Of a stretch of 64,000 nucleotides of DNA, positions 1,217 to 38,651 are shown in pieces; the first letter of the stretch is position 1; each line of letters opens with the position of its first letter. The position numbers and the translations under genes were made by a program. The stretch comes from an uncultured Lachnospiraceae bacterium (lineage in GTDB: Bacteria; Bacillota; Clostridia; Lachnospirales; Lachnospiraceae). The DNA is taken from NCBI GenBank assembly GCA_947631625.1, contig CANRMA010000009.1, positions 1-64,000 on the forward strand, in the 5' to 3' direction. Below the pieces are notes generated by a model. That model had not been told where the DNA came from. It worked only from the letters and a program-made list of their open reading frames with translations, and did not search any database.

Positions 1217-3189
1217 GCAAAAAACAGAAAAAAGTGCTTTTCAGAATAATATTATCAGCAGTTTTATTTATTATCATAAGCATTTTCAGGCCGGAGGGGT
1301 ATTTTGAACTGTTGTATCTTATGCCTTATTTTATTATAGGATACGATATCCTTAGAAAAGCTGTGCTTGGCGTGGCGCATGGAGAAGTGTTTGATGAAAA
1401 TTTCCTTATGTCGGTTGCGACTGTAGGCGCAATCGGGCTTAGAGAATTTTCAGAAAGCGTTGCGGTTATGCTCTTCTATCAGATAGGAGAGCTTTTCCAG
1501 AGCTATGCTGTAGGTAAGAGCCGTAAAAGTATAACCGCTCTTATGGATATACGCCCGGACTATGCCAATATTGAAAAAGACGGCAAATTAGTACAGGTGT
1601 CGCCTGAAGAAGTAAAGACAGGAGATACCATCGTGGTGTGCGCCGGGGAAAAGATACCGCTTGACGGTGTGGTAATTGACGGTTTTTCGACTATAAATAC
1701 CAGCGCATTAACAGGTGAGAGCATTCCGCGGGATGTAAATGTAGGGGATGATATCATAAGCGGCTGCGTAAATATGACAGGACTTATTAAAATAAGGACT
1801 ACTAAGGAATTTGGCGAATCTACCGTAAACAAGATACTTGATCTGGTTGAAAATTCCAGTATGAAAAAGTCCCGTTCGGAGAATTTCATATCAAAATTTG
1901 CAAGAGTGTATACGCCTGCCGTATGTTACGGAGCAGTGGCGCTTGCGATTTTGCCGCCGCTTATACGTATGTTTTTTATGAATACAGAGCCAATGTGGAG
2001 TGACTGGATAGCAAGAGCCTTTACTTTTCTGGTCATCAGCTGTCCGTGCGCTCTTGTGATTTCAATTCCGCTCAGCTTTTTTGGCGGGATCGGCGCCGCT
2101 TCCAAGTGCGGTATTTTAGTAAAGGGCTCCAATTATCTGGAGGCGCTGTCGGAAGCCGGTTATATTGTATTTGATAAGACTGGGACATTGACAGAAGGCG
2201 TTTTTCGTGTTAAAAATGTATATGCAAAAGAAAATGCCGTTGTTATGCAGGACATTGCCGCAGCGCAGGGCAGCGTTGGTAAAGAGAATAATACTGCAAT
2301 TCAGGGCAGCGTTGACAGAGAAGGCAATGTTACGACGCAGAGTATCGATATAAGGGAACGGGTATTGGAAATAGCGGCCTTGGCCGAAAGCTATTCCCCG
2401 CATCCCATAAGCAGCAGCCTGCGTGAAGCCTGCGCGGCGGAAATTGACCAAAGCAGAGTATCACAGGTCGAGGAGATCGCCGGACACGGCGTGACGGCCC
2501 TTATTGACGGTAAAAAGGCCGCCGTGGGAAATGCTAAGCTTATGGATAAGTTTGGGATCGCCTATGAAGAATGCAAAGAGACAGGAACAGTTGTATACGT
2601 GGCTCTTGAAGGTGAATATCTCGGCTGTATATTAATTTCAGACGTAATAAAAGCTGATGCAAAAGAAGCAATAAAGTCATTGAAAAAAGCAGGGATCAAA
2701 AAGGCTGTGATGCTGACAGGCGACAATGAAGCCGCCGCCGGAGAAGTTTCTGAGGAACTTGGGCTTGATGAGTTTCATGCAGAACTTCTGCCTGCGGACA
2801 AAGTTGATTGTGTCGAGAAACTTTTAAACGAAAAACCGTCAAAAAGCAAACTTATTTTTGTAGGAGACGGTATTAACGATGCGCCGGTGCTCACCAGGGC
2901 CGATATAGGTATCGCAATGGGGGCGATGGGTTCGGATGCGGCGATAGAAGCCGCGGACGTGGTGTTGATGGATGATGATCCGCAAAAGATTGCGCTTGCT
3001 ATCAAAATATCCCATAAATGTTTAAGGATAGTATATCAGAATATCGTTTTTGCGTTGGCAGTTAAAGCAGTATGTCTTGTTTTGGGCGCTTTTGGCATAG
3101 CCAATATGTGGATAGCCATATTTGCCGACGTGGGCGTTATGGTGCTTGCGGTTATTAATGCCACGCGCGCGCTTTCCGTAAAAAAGTAA
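1213..3189 (+). CDS. P1B-type heavy-metal-translocating ATPase (Zn/Cd/Pb class)
   Basis: This 658-aa membrane pump exports divalent soft metals using ATP. Visible landmarks are the membrane metal site SCPCALV (Cys277-Pro-Cys), phosphorylation loop DKTGT (Asp321), the SPHP motif (His397) of the nucleotide domain, hinge GDGINDAP near 552, and Asp639 in FADVGVM of the last helix, the P1B-2 (Zn/Cd/Pb) signature. It lacks an N-terminal HMA domain, which is encoded just upstream. An in-frame repeat-rich insertion follows the phosphorylation domain at about residues 350-378. It completes the sensor-chaperone-pump operon. ZntA or CadA would be reasonable names; the exact metal cannot be told. Confidence 0.93.
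   Translation: MSKKQKKVLFRIILSAVLFIIISIFRPEGYFELLYLMPYFIIGYDILRKAVLGVAHGEVFDENFLMSVATVGAIGLREFSESVAVMLFYQIGELFQSYAVGKSRKSITALMDIRPDYANIEKDGKLVQVSPEEVKTGDTIVVCAGEKIPLDGVVIDGFSTINTSALTGESIPRDVNVGDDIISGCVNMTGLIKIRTTKEFGESTVNKILDLVENSSMKKSRSENFISKFARVYTPAVCYGAVALAILPPLIRMFFMNTEPMWSDWIARAFTFLVISCPCALVISIPLSFFGGIGAASKCGILVKGSNYLEALSEAGYIVFDKTGTLTEGVFRVKNVYAKENAVVMQDIAAAQGSVGKENNTAIQGSVDREGNVTTQSIDIRERVLEIAALAESYSPHPISSSLREACAAEIDQSRVSQVEEIAGHGVTALIDGKKAAVGNAKLMDKFGIAYEECKETGTVVYVALEGEYLGCILISDVIKADAKEAIKSLKKAGIKKAVMLTGDNEAAAGEVSEELGLDEFHAELLPADKVDCVEKLLNEKPSKSKLIFVGDGINDAPVLTRADIGIAMGAMGSDAAIEAADVVLMDDDPQKIALAIKISHKCLRIVYQNIVFALAVKAVCLVLGAFGIANMWIAIFADVGVMVLAVINATRALSVKK
2266..2337 (+). repeat. In-frame 36-bp tandem repeat inside the P-type ATPase
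   Basis: Two 36-bp units starting CAGGGCAGCGTTG (2266 and 2302), with a third partial start at 2338, encode 12-residue repeats QGSVGKENNTAI and QGSVDREGNVTT. They lie between DKTGT and the SPHP motif, probably as a surface loop of the nucleotide-binding region. Confidence 0.85.
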
Positions 3190-3230
3190 AAAATTACAAT
3201 AATGAAAATAATGAATCTATAACAGACTAT

Positions 3231-3272
3231 TTATCCGGCGTCGGTTTACATAAAGTGACTAACGCCGGATAA
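3231..3272 (+). other. Inverted repeat in the leader of the DUF554 gene
   Basis: TTATCCGGCGT (3231-3241) and ACGCCGGATAA (3262-3272) are perfect 11-bp arms around a 20-base loop, ending 19 bases before the next ATG. No T-run follows on either strand, so it is not a classic terminator. It may be a leader hairpin or a protein-binding site. Confidence 0.6.
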
Positions 3273-3291
3273 AAAATGTGGGAGAATACAA

Positions 3292-4020
3292 ATGAAAGGT
3301 CTTGGAACTATAATAAATGTCATAGCGGTTATTTTGGGCGCGCTTCTTGGTATGTTTATAAAGGGGGGCATGAAGGAAAAACTGCAAAATATTCTGGTGC
3401 AGGCCTGCGGCCTTGCAACTCTTTTTATCGGTATAAGCGGTACACTTGAAAATATGCTTGTGGTATCTGAGTCTAGGATAAGCGTACAGGGTACGCTGCT
3501 TTTGATATGTTCTCTTGTGATAGGAAGTTTTATAGGTGAATTAATAGATATAGAATCGGCGCTTGAAGCTGTCGGAGAAAAGTTAAAAGGTATGATAAGC
3601 TCCAAGAATGACAGTCGATTTGTGGACGGCTTTGTTACGGCCTCTTTGGTTATATGCATAGGAGCTATGGCGGTAGTCGGTTCTTTGCAGGACGGTCTTA
3701 CCGGAGATTACAGTATGCTGCTTTCCAAAGCGGTTCTGGACTTTATAATAATAACGGTTTTTGCTTCCACAATGGGCGTGGGTGTATTATTTTCCGCACT
3801 GCCGCTTGGGATATATCAGGGCCTTATTACTTTGCTTGCGGTATTTATTGCGCCGTATATGACGGACTCTATGATCTCAAGCCTTTCTCTGGTGGGTTCC
3901 GCGCTGATATTCGGAGTGGGCGTCAATCTTATTTGGGATAAAAAGCTGCGGGTGGGCAATATGCTGCCGTCGCTTCTGGTTCCGATAGTATATGAGGTTG
4001 TAATGCAGCTGTTTGGATAG
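3292..4020 (+). CDS. DUF554 family integral membrane protein (YqgA/YdfK-like)
   Basis: A 242-aa, strongly hydrophobic protein starting MKGLGTIINVIAVILGALLG, with about six to seven membrane spans. The opening GTIINVIAVILGALLG and the internal FVDGFVTASLVICIGAMAVVGSLQDG stretch match the DUF554 family, whose members are putative transporters of unknown substrate. The start is supported by GGGAG before ATG. A terminator follows at 4104-4144, so it is probably a single-gene unit. No substrate can be assigned. Confidence 0.8.
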   Translation: MKGLGTIINVIAVILGALLGMFIKGGMKEKLQNILVQACGLATLFIGISGTLENMLVVSESRISVQGTLLLICSLVIGSFIGELIDIESALEAVGEKLKGMISSKNDSRFVDGFVTASLVICIGAMAVVGSLQDGLTGDYSMLLSKAVLDFIIITVFASTMGVGVLFSALPLGIYQGLITLLAVFIAPYMTDSMISSLSLVGSALIFGVGVNLIWDKKLRVGNMLPSLLVPIVYEVVMQLFG

Positions 4021-12126: not shown

Positions 12127-15100
12127 ATGAAGATTGTAAAAAAGTGGCTGGCACTTATACTTGCGGTATGCATGGCGCTAAACGGAAGTGTTATAAATGT
12201 GCTTGCGGCAGAACCGGGAAGCGTAGTTGAAATTTTAGACAATGAAACTATGCAGAGTGAATCTGACCAAGGAGAGCAGACTGCCAATACGGGTAATGAA
12301 ATGATGCATGATGCCTTTGATATGGATGATGAACGGTATGATAATGATACTGTTGATACCGATGATGCTGTTATGCCGCAGGAAAGTACAGAAGAAACTC
12401 AAAGTGACGTAATAGCTGATAGTAAAATAGATGAAGATCAGGAAGAGATATCAGAAGATAATGAAAGTGCAGATTCAGATGAGGTTTATCCTGAGGATAG
12501 TGAAAATGTAAGCTCAGATGAGGTCTATTCTGAAGAATCTCAAGAATCAGAATATGATATTGACAGAACCACTGAAACATCCACAGACTTGGATATTGAC
12601 AGCTTAATGTCAATGGATGTAAATGAACGGCTTGCGCAAATGACATCGGAAGGCGATATAGCAAGTGGCGTGACAGGAGATATTGCGTGGGTTATAAATG
12701 TTGATGGAAAGCTTATTGTGGTAGGAAGCGGCGAATACATAGCTGAAGGAGATCTTACACCTTGGCATGATAATTGTAATGATATAATATCGGCTAATAT
12801 AAATATTAGAAATATTAATTGTTTAACTTCTTTATTTTTGGATTGTTCTAAATTGACAAGTGTAGATTTAAGCGGTCTGGATATGAGTAAAGTTACTTAT
12901 ATGAATAAAATGTTTTCAGGATGTGAATGTCTGAAAAATATAGATTTAAGCATGTTTGATACGGATATAGTTGTTAGTATGTCAGCTATGTTTAAAGACT
13001 GCAAAAATATAGAAAATTTGAATTTGAAGACTTTTTATACTGAAAATGTAGAGGGTTTTGATTCAATGTTTTATGGCTGCAGTAGTCTTCAGACTCTTGA
13101 TTTGTCGAATTTTAGGACTGATAGTGCAAAAAATATGAATAATATGTTTAGAGACTGTGGTGCGCTTGCGTCTTTAAATGTGAACGAATTTAATACAATA
13201 AATGTAACCAGTATGAACCGAATGTTCAGCGGATGCAGTAATTTAACTGAAATTAATGTAAATAATTTCAATGTTTCTCAAGTGGAAAGCATGAGATATT
13301 TATTTTATGCCTGCAGTAAGCTTCAGACGATTGATTTTGGCAGTTTTGATGTTTCAAATGTAAAACAGATGGATCATATGTTTGATGGTTGCAGTATGCT
13401 GACAAATCTGAATTTGAGTGGTTTTGATGTAAAAAATGCGGAACAGGTAAGCTCTTTGATAGAAGACTGTACTGCGCTTAAAACCATTAATACGCCTAAA
13501 AATCTTTCTCTGGAGATAATGCTTCCACAAAATGAAAATGAAGTATGGAAGATGCCGGACGGAACAGTTATTAATGTGTTGCCGCAGAATTTAGATTATA
13601 GTGTAGAGATTAGAAAATATGATGAAAGTATAATTAATGAAAATGATATAGCGCATGGCTCATATAAAGATATTGTCTGGTCAATAAATGCTGATGGTAA
13701 ACTTACGGTTATCGGGAGCGGAAACCTTCACACTGTAGATTTTCCGGATGAAGACGATTATCCATGGCTTAGTTATAGAGAGTCTATTATATCAGCAGAG
13801 ATAAATCTTACTGACCCTATATTTGCAGATTACCTGTTTTATAATTGCAGTAATCTCAAAGAGGTAAACATAATTAATTTTAACACAGATAAACTTGCTG
13901 ATATGTATGGTATGTTTTTGGGCTGCGATAATCTGGATAAAATCAGTGTGCCTGCAGGATTAACAGAGACTTGTTGGCTGCCTATTTTAGAAGGAGCAGA
14001 AATCTGGATCATGCCGGACGGCACAGAGATTACATACTTACCAATGAATTTAAGCGAGCGTACAGAAATTATAAAAACTTCAAAGGTAATAAAGCCGGGA
14101 GAAGATATTGCAAGCGGAGTTAGCGGAGAGATTACTTGGACTATAGATGCAGATGGTAAACTAACACTGGAAGGAAATGGAGATTATAAGTTAGTAGATG
14201 CTTGTACTCCTTGGTATGGATATAGAACTTATATTAAATCAGCCAAAGTAAATGTTGCAAATATGAAAAACATGGCATTATTGTTTCAGGGTTGTGATAA
14301 CCTCGAAAATGTAGATTTAAGTGATTTAGATACATCTAAAGTAACTGATATGAGTGGTTTATTTATGGACTGCGTAAAGCTCAAAGATATTAATTTTGGC
14401 AATTTTGACACAAGCAACGTATACGATATGATGAGCATGTTCAGCGGTTGTAAGAGTCTTGTAAATCTTGATCTGAGCATATTTGATACCGGAAAAGTTG
14501 AAGATATGAGTTGTATGTTCTATGGCTGCAGTAGTTTAGAAAATCTTGATTTGCATAGTTTTGATACAAGTAATGTATCGGATATGTCCAGTATGTTTAC
14601 TATGTGTAGAAAGCTTGAACAGATCAATATAAGTGGTTTTAATACTGAAAATGTAATAAATATGTCATTTATGTTTAATGCCTGCGACGAATTAAAAAAT
14701 ATAGATTTAAGCAGTTTTGATACTTCAAATTTAGATTTGGTTTATGCTATGTTTGCTAATTGTGGCAGTTTGGAAAGTTTGGATTTAAGCAGTTTTGATT
14801 TATTTAAGCTTAATGATCTGGATCACTTCGATGATGAGAATGAAGTTGTTGGAGAAATGCTCATCGGTTGTAATATGTTGAGACAAATACAAACGCCTAA
14901 GAACCTTAAGATGTCCGTTCAGCTTCCAGCAGGCAGAACATGGACAATGCCTGATGGCGCACAAATTACTGAATTACCGAAGAATTTGAGTTACAGCGTT
15001 GAAATAACTTGCGTAACCAGTGAGATCGATGACTCACATATCGGAAACCCGTCTTACGAGGATCCGGGTGACGACACAACTTATGGCATCGATAAAAGAA

Positions 15101-16239
15101 TAGACCTAAACTCCATAAATGGAGAAATTTCCAAAATTAAAGCCAAAACATACGACGGTACGTCTTATGAACCTTCCGTGAAAGTTACGGTAAAGGAAAA
15201 TAATAAAAAGAAAACCCTCATTGAAGGAACTGATTACAGAGTAATATATTCAAACAATACAAATGCCGGAACCGGAATTGTAACCGTAAGAGGAAACGGA
15301 ATTTATAAAGGAGAACTTACAAAAGAATTTACGATTAATCCTAAGGCTATTAAGAAAGCCAAGGTTACTGCCGGAAGCTTGACTGTAGGAGAAAGTACTT
15401 CAGACATACCTATACAGGTATATGACGGAAACATACTTTTGACAAGAGATATTGATTATACATTATCATACCCTGCCGATATAACATCTAAAGCAGCTAA
15501 GTCTGTTAAAGTAAAGGTCATTGCCAAAGAAGGCAGCGATTATATTGGGGAAACAACGGTAAAAGTTGCTGTATATGAAGCAACTGCGGATAAGATTATC
15601 AATCCTGAGAATGTAACGCTTGCAAATGAAACTATGTCGTACACAGGAAAGGCCGTAAAGAATACTGTTACAGTGAAACTTGGCGATACAGTTCTTACCA
15701 ATAAGCAATACAAAGTGCAGTATCAGAATAATAAAAATGCAGGAACAGCCTTTATTATAGTCACAGGAAAAGGCGGTTATAAAGGCAAAGTTGTTAAATC
15801 ATTTGAGATAACTGCAAATACTCCTGCATTTGAAATTAAGAAAATTTCCGACAAAACCTACAATGGGAAGCTGCAGAAGCCATCAGTTACAGTAAAAGCG
15901 AACGGAAAGAAACTTAAAAAGAATAAAGATTATACAGTTTTTTATAAAAATAATCTGCATGCCGGAACAGCTACAGTAACTGTAATAGGTAAAGGTAATT
16001 ACAGCGGAAGAGCGGAACAGACTTTCACTATAAATAAACAGAAGATTTCCAAAGTTTCCGTAAAAGGAACCCGGAAAAGCGGACTTACAATAAGTTATGG
16101 CAAGAGGACATTGCAGGAAGGAATTGATTACACCTTGAATTATGGAGAAATTAAGAAAAATAAAATAAAAGTTACCATAACGGCTACGGAGAAGAGTGAT
16201 TTCAAAGATAGTGTAATTAAGACCGTAAAAATAGGATAG
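12127..16239 (+). CDS. Large secreted BspA-like (DUF285) repeat protein with Ig-like C-terminus
   Basis: A 1370-aa exported protein. Residues 1-28 are a signal peptide ending VLAA; about 30-170 is very acidic (Asp/Glu/Ser) with a repeated SDEVYxE motif. Three modules start with the same theme (DIASGVTGDIAWVINVDGKL, AHGSYKDIVWSINADGKL, DIASGVSGEITWTIDADGKL). Modules 1 and 3 hold runs of roughly 23-25-residue DUF285 repeats of the form NLDLSSFDTSNVxxMSxMFxGC; module 2 is short. From about 990 to the end are several YDG/Ig-like repeats (KTYDGTSYEPSVKV, NAGTGIVTVRGNG). No LPXTG, C-terminal helix or cell-wall-binding domain is visible, so attachment is unclear. The family includes adhesins; adhesion here is inference. 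Confidence 0.85.
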   Translation: MKIVKKWLALILAVCMALNGSVINVLAAEPGSVVEILDNETMQSESDQGEQTANTGNEMMHDAFDMDDERYDNDTVDTDDAVMPQESTEETQSDVIADSKIDEDQEEISEDNESADSDEVYPEDSENVSSDEVYSEESQESEYDIDRTTETSTDLDIDSLMSMDVNERLAQMTSEGDIASGVTGDIAWVINVDGKLIVVGSGEYIAEGDLTPWHDNCNDIISANINIRNINCLTSLFLDCSKLTSVDLSGLDMSKVTYMNKMFSGCECLKNIDLSMFDTDIVVSMSAMFKDCKNIENLNLKTFYTENVEGFDSMFYGCSSLQTLDLSNFRTDSAKNMNNMFRDCGALASLNVNEFNTINVTSMNRMFSGCSNLTEINVNNFNVSQVESMRYLFYACSKLQTIDFGSFDVSNVKQMDHMFDGCSMLTNLNLSGFDVKNAEQVSSLIEDCTALKTINTPKNLSLEIMLPQNENEVWKMPDGTVINVLPQNLDYSVEIRKYDESIINENDIAHGSYKDIVWSINADGKLTVIGSGNLHTVDFPDEDDYPWLSYRESIISAEINLTDPIFADYLFYNCSNLKEVNIINFNTDKLADMYGMFLGCDNLDKISVPAGLTETCWLPILEGAEIWIMPDGTEITYLPMNLSERTEIIKTSKVIKPGEDIASGVSGEITWTIDADGKLTLEGNGDYKLVDACTPWYGYRTYIKSAKVNVANMKNMALLFQGCDNLENVDLSDLDTSKVTDMSGLFMDCVKLKDINFGNFDTSNVYDMMSMFSGCKSLVNLDLSIFDTGKVEDMSCMFYGCSSLENLDLHSFDTSNVSDMSSMFTMCRKLEQINISGFNTENVINMSFMFNACDELKNIDLSSFDTSNLDLVYAMFANCGSLESLDLSSFDLFKLNDLDHFDDENEVVGEMLIGCNMLRQIQTPKNLKMSVQLPAGRTWTMPDGAQITELPKNLSYSVEITCVTSEIDDSHIGNPSYEDPGDDTTYGIDKRIDLNSINGEISKIKAKTYDGTSYEPSVKVTVKENNKKKTLIEGTDYRVIYSNNTNAGTGIVTVRGNGIYKGELTKEFTINPKAIKKAKVTAGSLTVGESTSDIPIQVYDGNILLTRDIDYTLSYPADITSKAAKSVKVKVIAKEGSDYIGETTVKVAVYEATADKIINPENVTLANETMSYTGKAVKNTVTVKLGDTVLTNKQYKVQYQNNKNAGTAFIIVTGKGGYKGKVVKSFEITANTPAFEIKKISDKTYNGKLQKPSVTVKANGKKLKKNKDYTVFYKNNLHAGTATVTVIGKGNYSGRAEQTFTINKQKISKVSVKGTRKSGLTISYGKRTLQEGIDYTLNYGEIKKNKIKVTITATEKSDFKDSVIKTVKIG

Positions 16240-21863: not shown

Positions 21864-21872
21864 ATTTTTAAT

Positions 21873-22078
21873 TAGTGATTGCAAAACTTTCTCAACGTAT
21901 ATTGATTGTGCAGATTTAACAAACACCATTGCAGGCGCTCTGAGCCCGCCGGTGCTTAGGCTGCGTATTTTGCAGCCTTAGCACCGTTGCGTGGCTCAAC
22001 GCAGCGAAAGCGGCCTGCAAAGGTTTTGTTAAATCTGCACAATCTCGAAGACGTGCATCAGCGTTTTGCAATTGTCTG
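21873..22078 (+). mobile_element. Palindromic MITE-like element, copy B
   Basis: A 206-bp copy in the same orientation as A, 165 bases away. GATTGTGCAGATTTAACAAA (21904-21923) and its exact complement near 22025-22044 give a 20-bp perfect outer stem, with inner arms of the shared hairpin. Flanks AATATTTTTAAT and GATATTTTTAAA agree at 10 of 12 positions, consistent with a decayed target duplication. It ends 34 bases before the next ATG, placing a large hairpin in that gene's leader. Confidence 0.85.
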
Positions 22079-22112: not shown

Positions 22113-22865
22113 ATGGATAAAGAAGCGTTTGAACAGGCAAAATTGAAAGTGCTGCTTGACCGGCATGAGCCGCAGGGCTTCGGAACACTGCAGGAAAAGA
22201 CCGTACATGCCGTGATGAAGCTTTATTATGAACCTGATATCGATTATCATGAGGTGCCGGTGGAAGGATATATAGCGGATATATATAAAAATGGACATAT
22301 AATAGAGATCCAGAACGGGAATTTTAACAGACTCAGGGAAAAACTTAAGACCTTTTTACCATTATATAAAGTTACGGTGGTATTTCCGATTCCGCACAAC
22401 AGATGGCTCATATATATTGATGAAGAAAGCGGAGAGTTATCGAAAAAACGTAAATCTCCTGTGACCGGCAGCGTATACAGCGCATTTCCTGAACTCTATA
22501 AGATTAAAGAATTTTTAGGACATCCCAATCTTTCTTTTTCGTTTCCGTTGGTCGATATGGACGAATATCGTCTGTTGCCCCGAAGCGCCGGTTCTAAAAC
22601 AAAAGGCAGGGGCAAAAAACGCGGGAGCAGATATGACAGGATGCCGCTTGAACTTTATGATGAAATAAATTTTGAGCGGCCGGAAGATTTTGTGCAGGTT
22701 ATACCGATAGAGCTAAACGGGCAGTTTACGGTAAAGGAATTTGCGGCGGCGGCCCATATTCATAGGGATTATGCGCAGATAACGCTGCATATACTGAATC
22801 ATATGGAACTGGTAAAGAGAGCAGGCAAACGGTCCAGAGAGTATCTGTACGAGGTAATAGATTAG
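22113..22865 (+). CDS. Probable PD-(D/E)XK-like protein with C-terminal winged helix, function unknown
   Basis: A 250-aa protein. Residues about 25-120 read HAVMKLYYEPD...HEVPVEGYIADIYKNGHIIEIQNGNFNRLREKL. The Glu, then ADI, then EIQ arrangement looks like the catalytic core of a PD-(D/E)XK nuclease fold (E...D...ExQ), followed by VTVVFPIPHNRWLIYID. A basic linker (KTKGRGKKRGSRYD) leads to a C-terminal helix-turn-helix-like domain (GQFTVKEFAAAAHIHRDYAQITLHIL). I recall similar clostridial proteins of unknown function, possibly the DUF8091 group. It precedes the topoisomerase pair. Nuclease activity is inference from the motif order. Confidence 0.6.
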   Translation: MDKEAFEQAKLKVLLDRHEPQGFGTLQEKTVHAVMKLYYEPDIDYHEVPVEGYIADIYKNGHIIEIQNGNFNRLREKLKTFLPLYKVTVVFPIPHNRWLIYIDEESGELSKKRKSPVTGSVYSAFPELYKIKEFLGHPNLSFSFPLVDMDEYRLLPRSAGSKTKGRGKKRGSRYDRMPLELYDEINFERPEDFVQVIPIELNGQFTVKEFAAAAHIHRDYAQITLHILNHMELVKRAGKRSREYLYEVID

Positions 22866-35686: not shown

Positions 35687-36715
35687 ATGTATAAACGAAC
35701 GATTACGGAACGTGAAGCCGGACAGCGGTTTGACAAATACCTGCATAAGCTTCTTCCCGAAGCCGGAAGCGGTTTCCTATACAAGATGCTGCGGAAAAAG
35801 AATATCGTATTAAATGAAAAAAAGGCCGACGGGAGCGAAAAACTGGTCTGCGGCGATACGGTGTCAGTATATTTTTCTGAGGAAACCTTACAAAAATTTA
35901 TGGGCGCAGGCGCGGCCTTAGAGGCGGCTGAAAGGCATTTTGAGGCTGAGGCGAAGGTCATATACGAGAATAACCACATTCTGATAGCGGACAAGCCCGC
36001 AGGAATGCTGACTCAGAAGGCCGCAGCGTCGGATTTTTCACTGAATGACTGGCTCGCCGCCTATCTCCTTAATTCAGGGCAGATAAATAGGGCGGAGCTT
36101 ATGACGTTTAAACCGTCAGCTTGTAACAGACTGGATAGAAATACGAGCGGTATAGTGCTCTGTTCCAAAACGGTAACGGGAGCGCAGATGCTTGGCGAGG
36201 CGCTTAAAGCCGGCGCTTGCCGAAGCGCATGTAATAAAAAAGAAAAATTGCATAAGTTTTATATGCTTTATGTCAAAGGGCATATCTATGATGAAAAGGT
36301 ATTGAAAGGCTATCTTGTTAAAGACGAGAAGCGCAATAAAGTGCAAATCTGTACGGAGAGGGAATTTTTAAATAACAAAATATCCGCCGACAGCGCTTAT
36401 GTCTGTACAAAATGCGTTCCGATAAGGCAGGAGGAAGATAAGACGCTTCTGGAGGTCGAGCTTATAACGGGAAAACCCCATCAGATAAGAGCGCATCTTG
36501 CAGGCATCGGCCACCCGCTGCTTGGAGATTATAAATACGGCGACAGAAATTGGAATGATATATATAGAAAAAAGTTTGGCATAGAACATCAGCTTTTGCA
36601 TGCATATAAAGTCGTATTTGAAGAAATGGGAGAACCTTTTGGCGACCTGAGCGGCAGAGAGTTTGTGTCTCCGCTGCCGGAGATATTTGAGATACTTGGG
36701 AAGGAGTTCATATAA
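35687..36715 (+). CDS. RluA-family pseudouridine synthase
   Basis: A 342-aa RNA pseudouridine synthase with an N-terminal S4 domain (REAGQRFDKYLHKLLPEAGSGF) and the catalytic domain at about 85-320. The catalytic Asp is in NRLDRNTSGIV, where the more common HRLD has Asn; this NRLD form is frequent in clostridial RluC/RluD-like proteins. KPHQIRAHLAGIGHPLLGD follows. I start at ATG 35687 (GAGG six bases upstream); the track's start at 35645 directly abuts the preceding stop. Its stop overlaps the recU start by one base. A second RluA-family gene (RluD) is at 62.4 kb. Confidence 0.88.
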   Translation: MYKRTITEREAGQRFDKYLHKLLPEAGSGFLYKMLRKKNIVLNEKKADGSEKLVCGDTVSVYFSEETLQKFMGAGAALEAAERHFEAEAKVIYENNHILIADKPAGMLTQKAAASDFSLNDWLAAYLLNSGQINRAELMTFKPSACNRLDRNTSGIVLCSKTVTGAQMLGEALKAGACRSACNKKEKLHKFYMLYVKGHIYDEKVLKGYLVKDEKRNKVQICTEREFLNNKISADSAYVCTKCVPIRQEEDKTLLEVELITGKPHQIRAHLAGIGHPLLGDYKYGDRNWNDIYRKKFGIEHQLLHAYKVVFEEMGEPFGDLSGREFVSPLPEIFEILGKEFI

Positions 36716-37251
36716 TGCCAACCTGGAATTCACGAGGTCTGCGGGGTTCCACACTGGAGGAGCTTATAAACCGCACTAATGAAAAATATTTGGAAAGCGG
36801 TCTTGCTTTAATTCAAAAGATCCCGACTCCTATAACCCCGATCAATATAGATAAGCAGAGCCGTCATATAACTCTGGCGTACTTTGAACAGAAAAGTACG
36901 GTAGATTACATAGGAGTGGTTCAGGGCATTCCGGTCTGCTTTGACGCCAAAGAGTGCGCAGGAGATACATTTGCGCTTCAGAACATACACGAACATCAGT
37001 TCGAGTTTATGCGCCGCTTTGAACAACAGCAGGGCATAGCTTTTTTCCTTATATACTATACGGGAAAAGATATTTTCTATTACCTTCCGTTTGAGATGCT
37101 GCGCTTCTTCTGGGACAGGGCTAAAGAAGGCGGCCGCAAGAGTTTTAGATACGACGAGCTTAATCCGGAGTATGTTCTGCCTAAAAAACAGGGCATTTTA
37201 GTGCCGTATCTGGACATGCTTAATAAAGATTTAGATGACAGAGCCGAATAA
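36715..37251 (+). CDS. recU: Holliday junction resolvase RecU
   Basis: This 178-aa nuclease of the Firmicutes RecU family resolves four-way junctions in recombination. It opens NSRGLRGSTLEELINRTNEKYLESGLALIQKIPTP, and the active-site run is FEQKSTVDYIGVVQG...CFDAKE, with Asp, Glu and Lys of the PD-(D/E)XK core. The length is slightly short of Bacillus RecU (about 200 aa). The pbp1/ponA gene that often neighbours recU is not present. It is coupled to the RluA-type gene by a TAATG overlap. Confidence 0.92.
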   Translation: MPTWNSRGLRGSTLEELINRTNEKYLESGLALIQKIPTPITPINIDKQSRHITLAYFEQKSTVDYIGVVQGIPVCFDAKECAGDTFALQNIHEHQFEFMRRFEQQQGIAFFLIYYTGKDIFYYLPFEMLRFFWDRAKEGGRKSFRYDELNPEYVLPKKQGILVPYLDMLNKDLDDRAE

Positions 37252-37290
37252 AAGTGTTAAAGTAGAGTGGTAAGCATTTATATTCATATA

Positions 37291-37498
37291 TAGGCAATTG
37301 CGAAACTTTGATTTATGTCTTTTTGGATTGTACAGATTTAACAAAACCCTTGCAGGCCGCTTTCGCTGCGTTGAGCCTCGCAGCGGTGCTAAGGCTGCAA
37401 AATACGCAGCCTAAGAACCGGCGGGCTCAGAGCGCCTGCAATGGTGTTTGTTAAATCTGCACAATCAATATACGTTGAGAGAGTTTCGCAAATGCCTA
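37291..37498 (-). mobile_element. Palindromic MITE-like element, copy C (inverted)
   Basis: A 208-bp copy in the opposite orientation to A and B, with termini TAGGCAATTGCG and GCAAATGCCTA. Its core is nearly identical to B over the hairpin. Flanks TATATTCATATA and TATATTATTAAA agree at 9 of 12 positions, a weak target duplication in AT-rich DNA. It fills almost the whole gap between recU and hisZ, so the his operon must either be read through it or start in or beside it. Confidence 0.85.
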
Positions 37499-37504
37499 TA
37501 TATT
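37475..37504 (+). promoter_or_regulatory. Candidate his operon promoter made by the end of element C
   Basis: TTGAGA (37475-37480) inside the GAGA-end of element C, an 18-base spacer, and TATATT (37499-37504) in the flank just outside. The leader would be about 20 bases before ATG 37530. No better promoter is visible in the 39 bases between recU and the element. Confidence 0.45.
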
Positions 37505-37529
37505 ATTAAAATTGCAGGGAGCTTATAAA

Positions 37530-38651
37530 ATGGGCAGAAAACTTGTACATACGCCGGAGGGCGTAAGGGATATTTACGGAGATGAGATGGAGCGCAAAAT
37601 GGAAGTTGAGAGGCTTCTTGGCGAGCGCATTCATTCATACGGATATCGCGACATCCAGACTCCTACATTTGAATTTTTCGATGTTTTTTCCAAAGACGTG
37701 GGAACGACTCCGTCTAAGGAACTGTATAAATTTTTTGACAAGGAAGGCAATACGCTGGTGTTAAGACCTGATTTTACGCCGTCCATAGCCAGATGCGCAG
37801 CCAAGTATTTTATGGATGACGACGTCCCGATCCGCTTCTGCTATAAGGGAAACACTTTTACCAATACCTCGGATCTTCAGGGAAAGTTAAAAGAAACCAC
37901 GCAAATGGGAGCTGAGCTTATAGGCGATAATTCGGTATACGCCGATGCAGAGATGATAGCGATGACAATAGAGTCGCTTTACCATGCGGGACTTAACGAT
38001 TTCCAGATCAGTATAGGAAATGCGGAATATTTTAAGGGCGTATGCGCGCAGGCGGGGCTTGATGAGGAAACGGAGCTTGAGCTTCGCGGGTTTATATCCG
38101 GTAAGAATTATTTCGGCGCCGAAGACTTGCTTATAAACAGGGACGTAAAGGAAAAAGACAGGGAGGCGCTGCTTAAGACCGGAGATCTGTTCGGCTCGGT
38201 CGAGGCTCTTGACGAAGCGCTAGGGCTTGTCAATAACGAACGTTCCAAGGCGGCGGTGCTGAGGCTTAAGAGTGTTTATGAGGCGCTTTGTCATTACGGC
38301 GTGGAAAAATACGTATCGTTTGATTTAACGATGCTCAGCAAGTACAATTATTATACGGGCGTTATTTTCAAAGGTTATACCTATGATGTCGGCGATGCGA
38401 TAGTAAGGGGCGGAAGATATGATACACTGCTTTCAAGTTTCGGTAAAAACGCGCCCGCGATAGGCTTTATGATAGAGGTGGACGGGCTTTTGCTCGCTAT
38501 GGAGCGACAGGGCATAGTCAATGAATATGCGAAAAAACGTACAAAAATTCACTATAACGACAATAATTATCCGGACAAATTAAAAGAAGCAAGAATGCTG
38601 CGCGCCGACGGCCAGAGCGTTGAGCTTCTGCCGGAAATGAATGGGAGATAA
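37530..38651 (+). CDS. hisZ: ATP phosphoribosyltransferase regulatory subunit HisZ
   Basis: A 373-aa class II aminoacyl-tRNA synthetase-like protein without the synthetase anticodon domain. It starts HTPEGVRDIYGDEMERK and has the HisRS-like motif 2 region TLVLRPDFTPSIARCAAKYF and RFCYKGNTF, with the GGRYDTLLSSFG motif near 315. It pairs with the short HisG downstream (two bases) to form the hetero-octameric enzyme. I use ATG 37530 with AGGGAG eight bases upstream, not TTG 37512. It is the first gene of the his run. Confidence 0.9.
   Translation: MGRKLVHTPEGVRDIYGDEMERKMEVERLLGERIHSYGYRDIQTPTFEFFDVFSKDVGTTPSKELYKFFDKEGNTLVLRPDFTPSIARCAAKYFMDDDVPIRFCYKGNTFTNTSDLQGKLKETTQMGAELIGDNSVYADAEMIAMTIESLYHAGLNDFQISIGNAEYFKGVCAQAGLDEETELELRGFISGKNYFGAEDLLINRDVKEKDREALLKTGDLFGSVEALDEALGLVNNERSKAAVLRLKSVYEALCHYGVEKYVSFDLTMLSKYNYYTGVIFKGYTYDVGDAIVRGGRYDTLLSSFGKNAPAIGFMIEVDGLLLAMERQGIVNEYAKKRTKIHYNDNNYPDKLKEARMLRADGQSVELLPEMNGR

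Follow-up and report, generated by a model that had tools for sequence, protein, structure and literature searches.

The question raised by this locus is whether a palindromic repeat lying in front of a histidine operon provides the operon with its promoter. The repeat, element C (37291..37498, plus strand), is about 208 bp long and is found, in the 64,000-nucleotide stretch of Lachnospiraceae DNA analysed here (the window), between recU (36715..37251, plus strand; Pfam PF03838; stop codon 37249-37251) and hisZ (37530..38651, plus strand; ATG at 37530). The latter encodes a histidyl-tRNA-synthetase-like regulatory subunit (Pfam PF13393, E=5e-73) and is the first gene of hisZGDB, the next genes being assigned by Pfam to HisG, Histidinol_dh and IGPD. 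An extent of 37291-37504 had originally been given; the position between recU and hisZ holds, while the end is slightly shorter, at 37498. The edges read TA-GGCAATTGCGAAACT at the left end (37291) and AGTTTCGCAAATGCC-TA at the TTGAGA (GAGA) end (37498), which is turned toward hisZ. One hairpin is predicted for the element (-107 kcal/mol, z -11.7), including a conserved structured core (37343..37449, plus strand; model R1, 104.3 bits). Beyond the element end, at a distance of about 18 bp, comes a Shine-Dalgarno-like GGGAG of hisZ (37517..37521, plus strand).

The promoter-like arrangement on which the original prediction was built is present. The -35-like hexamer TTGAGA (37475..37480, plus strand) lies within the element end, and the -10-like hexamer TATATT, 18 nt further on (37499..37504, plus strand), falls entirely within the flank, which is target DNA. 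The pair matches 10 of 12 consensus bases and ends 25 bp before the hisZ ATG. No other promoter match in the recU-hisZ gap of the source genome reaches 10/12; the pair is one of four promoter-like sites counted in 361 bp, against 0.6 +/- 0.8 in shuffles. The same arrangement, also claimed for the corresponding end of element A (L011; 21499..21707, minus strand), a member of the same family, was confirmed there on the minus strand at 21524-21495, toward a GGDEF gene whose start is 130 bp off. Elements C and A both carry, as predicted promoters, the -35/-10 arrangement at the element end that characterises promoter-bearing MITEs of the Correia type. A third member in the window, element B (21872..22078, minus strand), has its left end 34 bp upstream of the start of an ORF at 22113.

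In the source genome (2.67 Mb, in an assembly 81% complete) the TTGAGA-end sequence gave 65 matches, with 0 in a reversed-pattern control, and the terminal repeat 133 matches, with 1 in the control. The family comprises at least 65 copies of about 208 bp, in 60 of which both ends could be placed. As in MITEs, the copies share terminal inverted repeats (TIR; TAGGYRATTGCGAAAC), have no coding capacity and are shorter than 500 bp, and target site duplications (TSD) of up to 14 bp, most commonly 10-12, were scored in 36 of the 60. Clear copies show AT-rich duplications of 10-13 bp; for element C itself no clean TSD was scored. The family TIRs also flank shorter elements with other interiors. A second short family with the same TIR has the interior GAATTTAGTAAAAATATACAAATAAGGGGTGACTCTGCG or its complement, and is frequently inserted right beside a member of the first (source-genome C7:94078-94218, C2:94508-94647 and C3:63878-64018; flanks of L017, L019, L080 and L081).

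A candidate mobiliser came from a TIR scan of viral contigs, which returned four loci, two of them with complete elements of about 1.77-1.80 kb coding for a transposase of 485-507 aa in a single ORF. The domain DUF772 (PF05598) was detected at 48 bits in L354 and L356, a DDE domain (PF01609) at 24.7 bits in L356, and PF13751 below its cut-off in L354, so that the DDE matches are weak. DUF772 plus DDE, the single ORF, a length of about 1.76 kb and the TIRs are features shared with the IS1182 family; the score with the NCBIfam equivalog transpos_IS1182, 68-69 bits, is far under the cut-off of 270 and we therefore name the transposon IS1182-like only. Of 77 genus genomes, 22 have homologues of the transposase; in the source genome there is a truncated copy only, a 99-residue remnant. 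Ten intact IS copies in other genomes carry both TAGGYRATTGCGAAAC-type ends (L354, L356, L358, L359, L361, L362, L363, L365, L380 and L381), which gives the MITEs an autonomous partner. All of these except L354 and L363 are located close to a Shine-Dalgarno sequence (SD), seven by a start called 27-39 bp away and L381 by eye, and in 8/8 the gene-facing end is of the TAGGCRTTTGCG type (sides counted by reading); the IS copies use one end toward the gene, whereas the MITEs use either. A TIR remnant at C12 (L117) was rejected as an autonomous copy for want of a transposase, and the IS at L350, which we take to be IS231-like, was rejected as mobiliser because its ends differ. The plasmid scan gave no match, and the single match in the phage scan was partial and to a record that carries no annotation.

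What stands out in the family is where its copies lie relative to genes. In 47 of the 60 copies one end has a start codon with an SD at a distance of 15-50 bp, the other 13 having no called start near either end, and 0/60 copies lie in convergent intergenic regions. From element end to start the median distance is 32 bp, with 18 bp between the end and the beginning of the SD; operon-internal sites are included, and gene calls and SD positions are those of purpose-written scripts rather than of a trained gene finder. Since a lenient test of start proximity had a control rate of 22%, a strict test was used for the source-genome copies: 26/60 fell at 20-42 bp from a start, compared with 51/1377 control sites in AT-rich DNA (p=1e-21), whereas the three distance intervals that follow, equally wide, contained 0, 2 and 0 of 60. 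In relatives the SD spacing holds in 20/20 copies with both TIRs by the lenient test, and in 38/44 copies of a larger set of other genomes which overlaps these 20. TIR pairs without core kept the spacing in 6/7 cases, single TIRs away from the core were near a start in 6/21, and cores without TIR showed no fixed spacing, 15/41 having a start at any distance from 5 to 90 bp. As the spacing is kept by core-less TIR pairs and by IS copies and lost by TIR-less cores, the address goes with the TIR. The proposed insertion into TA-rich sites is incomplete as a description: the target combines AT-richness with a position some 18 bp ahead of an SD, and is duplicated over 10-13 bp. An alternative target, the -10 box, was rejected, the flanks being AT-rich with no TATAAT-like sequence at a fixed position and many of the sites being operon-internal.

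All evidence for this address comes from retained copies, so the same picture could arise if insertion were broad and only the copies in gene leaders had been kept. The least harm is to be expected from insertions between convergent genes, of which there are none among the 60, and the spacing is tight in both orientations as well as for intact IS copies. The small MITE-like hairpin repeats BOX, RUP and SPRITE of pneumococcus, which resemble the element C family in being interspersed, are over-represented between convergent genes in the data presented in the relevant part of PMC3049150, in contrast to what is seen here. We consider such survivorship unlikely. Element C is very probably, from its sequence features, a non-autonomous MITE mobilised by the IS1182-like transposase and placed upstream of SDs. 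Our literature search, made at listing level and mostly outside subscription journals, retrieved neither a description of an SD-upstream target for the IS1182 family nor a publication dealing with SD-proximal targeting or the Lachnospiraceae hairpin core. If true, the choice of sites by their distance from an SD would be an unusual target rule, easily assayed, which spares coding sequence yet lands the element where expression can change.

The TTGAGA end stands out from the opposite one among the copies of the source genome. A penalised junction score of at least 9 was reached by 15/60 TTGAGA ends and 1/60 opposite ends, the means being 8.06 and 6.53 (p=1.4e-12). No recurrent promoter was found at the opposite end or within these copies, and native promoters beyond the far side of the element had mean scores near those of shuffles. 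An outward promoter can thus arise, judging from these scores, from the TTGAGA end and an AT-rich target in the source-genome subfamily; among the 44 copies of other genomes none had a promoter-like TTGAGA end at the same threshold. Selection for promoter strength throughout the family is not supported, since junction scores are equal for gene-facing and other copies of the source genome (8.1 v 8.0, p=0.75) and the comparison of TTGAG retention (16/20 vs 9/18) gave p=0.09. Insertion sequences are known to form hybrid promoters through an outward -35 in their ends, as in IS1, IS2 and IS256. The likeness to element C is that the element end gives the -35 and the target the -10; the difference is that in its family the predicted junction promoters of gene-facing copies are no better than others.

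The closest functional parallel, going by the portions of PMC10969869 that deal with them, are the Correia elements (CREE) of Neisseria, high-copy MITEs located mostly just upstream of genes and bearing outward sigma70-like promoters. As far as that account goes, they are alike to the element C family in copy number, size and placement upstream of genes, and differ in TIR, mobiliser and target duplication. Two further contrasts lie in the element C family itself, namely its fixed spacing to the SD and the confinement of the promoter-like end to the source-genome subfamily.

A further argument for promoter activity is the orientation of the copies. We defined a site as tight when the stop of the upstream gene lies within 50 bp and as wide otherwise, excluding the 13/60 copies with no called near start. 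TTGAGA marks the end nearer the gene in 20/23 tight and 6/24 wide sites (20:3 vs 6:18; Fisher p=2.5e-5), and the bias is stable for stop thresholds of 20-100 bp (p<=0.007 at each). If TTGAGA ends are promoters, they are expected toward genes cut off from upstream transcription, which fits the bias at tight sites; an origin in the insertion mechanism could also account for it. In the 44 copies of other genomes, a small sample of mixed species whose ends lack the promoter-like arrangement, the bias is absent (table 12,8 / 10,8; p=1), and the odds ratios of source and other genomes differ (heterogeneity p=0.007). A rule for the whole family is accordingly rejected, the bias being confined to the source genome.

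The comparison of hisZ upstream regions with and without the element, proposed together with the promoter, could be made in relatives. The four nearest by HisZ (G052, G086, G066 and G064; 83-84% identity) keep hisZ and its adjacency to recU and are without the element. Their recU-hisZ gap is 59-61 bp in three and 124 bp in G066, and it contains neither a HisR box nor a promoter match of at least 10/12. Most relatives have in this gap a promoter resembling TTGACA/TTGCAA-17-TATANT, often followed by a HisR-type box; a match of at least 10/12 was present in 29/29 relatives of one set and in 21/29 of an overlapping set (8/29 without). The HisR consensus is cacTTTAnnnnnnTAAAgtg in the part of PMC9413887 dealing with it. 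In the clade of the source genome the HisR-type his promoter is absent. HisR itself (TIGR02531) is present in G052, G086 and G006 and was not found in G064, G066, G011, G021 and the source genome, the last of these absences being weak since the assembly is 81% complete. G052 and G086 (L162 and L163) encode the HisR homologue, yet the HisR box is missing before their hisZ.

These data could be read as the loss, in this lineage, of the HisR-controlled promoter, after which the end of element C became the main promoter of the operon. Consistent with this are the HisR-type operator and TTGACA-17-TATANT of most other relatives, missing in the source genome (the motif being that of the cited part of PMC9413887), the lack of a detected HisR there, qualified as above by assembly completeness, and the rank of the junction as best promoter match in the gap. 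The relatives without the element are also without the HisR-type promoter, so that its loss preceded the insertion, and element C at most added a promoter; we regard the role of main promoter as rather doubtful.

Upstream of the element there is a second candidate. The sequence ATGACA-17-TGtTAAAGT (37235..37263, plus strand), which runs across the recU stop, matches 9/12 consensus bases, ends 27 bp before element C in the source genome and is found in 5/5 clade genomes, the remaining gap having diverged. A conserved his promoter independent of the element was what the original prediction had named as speaking against it, and at the level of sequence this is such a candidate. Its conservation is partly explained by its -35, which is recU coding sequence. 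Element C could then be no more than a passenger of the leader: hisZ would be transcribed from this site or by read-through from recU, and TTGAGA-18-TATATT would be a by-product of an AT-rich target next to an end that bears TTGAGA. That the four nearest relatives keep recU-hisZ without the element or a 10/12 gap promoter, that the recU-end block persists in a diverged gap and that gene-facing TTGAGA ends have no better junctions all agree with a passenger; the 9/12 site is weak, its -35 in recU codons is also kept in relatives with another promoter, and a mere passenger would not explain why orientation is biased at tight sites. We give the passenger reading a little less than an even chance.

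For the end of element C as a working his promoter our expectation is likewise just short of even. The best match in the gap and the bias at tight sites speak for the proposal that it supplies the his promoter, the undistinguished scores of gene-facing copies and the nearest relatives with hisZ and without the element against it; from sequence comparison, element C may add a his promoter, and sole supply of that promoter goes beyond the evidence.

In the mechanism we propose, the family would insert, whichever way round, into AT-rich DNA whose end lies about 18 bp from a downstream SD, and copies would thus occupy gene leaders, some 32 bp short of the start codon, also between operon genes. 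Where the TTGAGA end of the source-genome subfamily meets an AT-rich target an outward promoter would result, at hisZ TTGAGA-18-TATATT, which would add transcription of hisZGDB to the supply from upstream (recU read-through or ATGACA-17-TGtTAAAGT). Tentatively, and as a proposal that may well prove wrong, the IS1182-like family and its MITEs would recognise the translation-initiation region itself (AT-rich, at a fixed distance upstream of the SD) whether or not a promoter is present there, and in the source lineage the MITE end would have gained an outward -35, becoming a portable promoter able to detach downstream genes, in this case hisZGDB, from upstream control. If true, SD-based targeting with an outward -35 would be a natural route to the rewiring of operons, the histidine operon being an example.

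The hairpin core is a structure apart from the question of targeting, covarying, common to many Lachnospiraceae genera and not in Rfam (0 matches above the gathering score; the best, a miRNA model with E=0.003, far under threshold). When 23 elements of several genomes were aligned, 26 of the 39 consensus pairs had compensatory changes, and in the core alignment such changes affect 19/31 pairs, a value reached in 0/500 shuffles. The core model was detected in 47/48 genus genomes and 0/31 other genomes of the order; in a class-wide sample it hit 7/245, all within the 9 of the same family. Among the matches listed in a pattern scan of named genomes are Blautia, Butyrivibrio, Roseburia, Coprococcus and other Lachnospiraceae, with a few records otherwise named, e.g. 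Muribaculum. The outer stems around the core vary between genera.

The compensatory changes, together with the recurrence of the core with other outer stems across Lachnospiraceae, would suit a hairpin that acts as RNA, either as leader or as small RNA, and for which the element is kept. RNA in gene sense would have the plus strand in 26 copies but the minus strand in the other 21, indicating that mRNAs are not under selection for one sense, and TIR-less cores have no fixed spacing to starts; an RNA role seems improbable to us. The small side loop, read on the minus strand, is GAAA, GCAA, GAGA or GGGA in most copies seen (by reading), a GNRA pattern, and the G-U versus A-C pair types lean to the plus strand (by eye). 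Cores corresponding to 37343-37449 of the window (L230-L309) occur within outer stems that are unrelated to one another, and in some cases between different palindromic ends, which gives them the look of a cargo of several hairpin elements.

Two ORFs were noted in passing. On C20 of the source genome (L122), at 2566-3513 of the minus strand, an ORF resembles by eye a ToxN/AbiQ-type protein in its N-terminal half and an IS91-type transposase in its C-terminal half, and may be an insertion fusion. In the window, an ORF of 1370 aa at 12127-16239, which presumably resembles leucine-rich-repeat surface proteins, contains ten degenerate repeat copies spaced at multiples of 78 bp.
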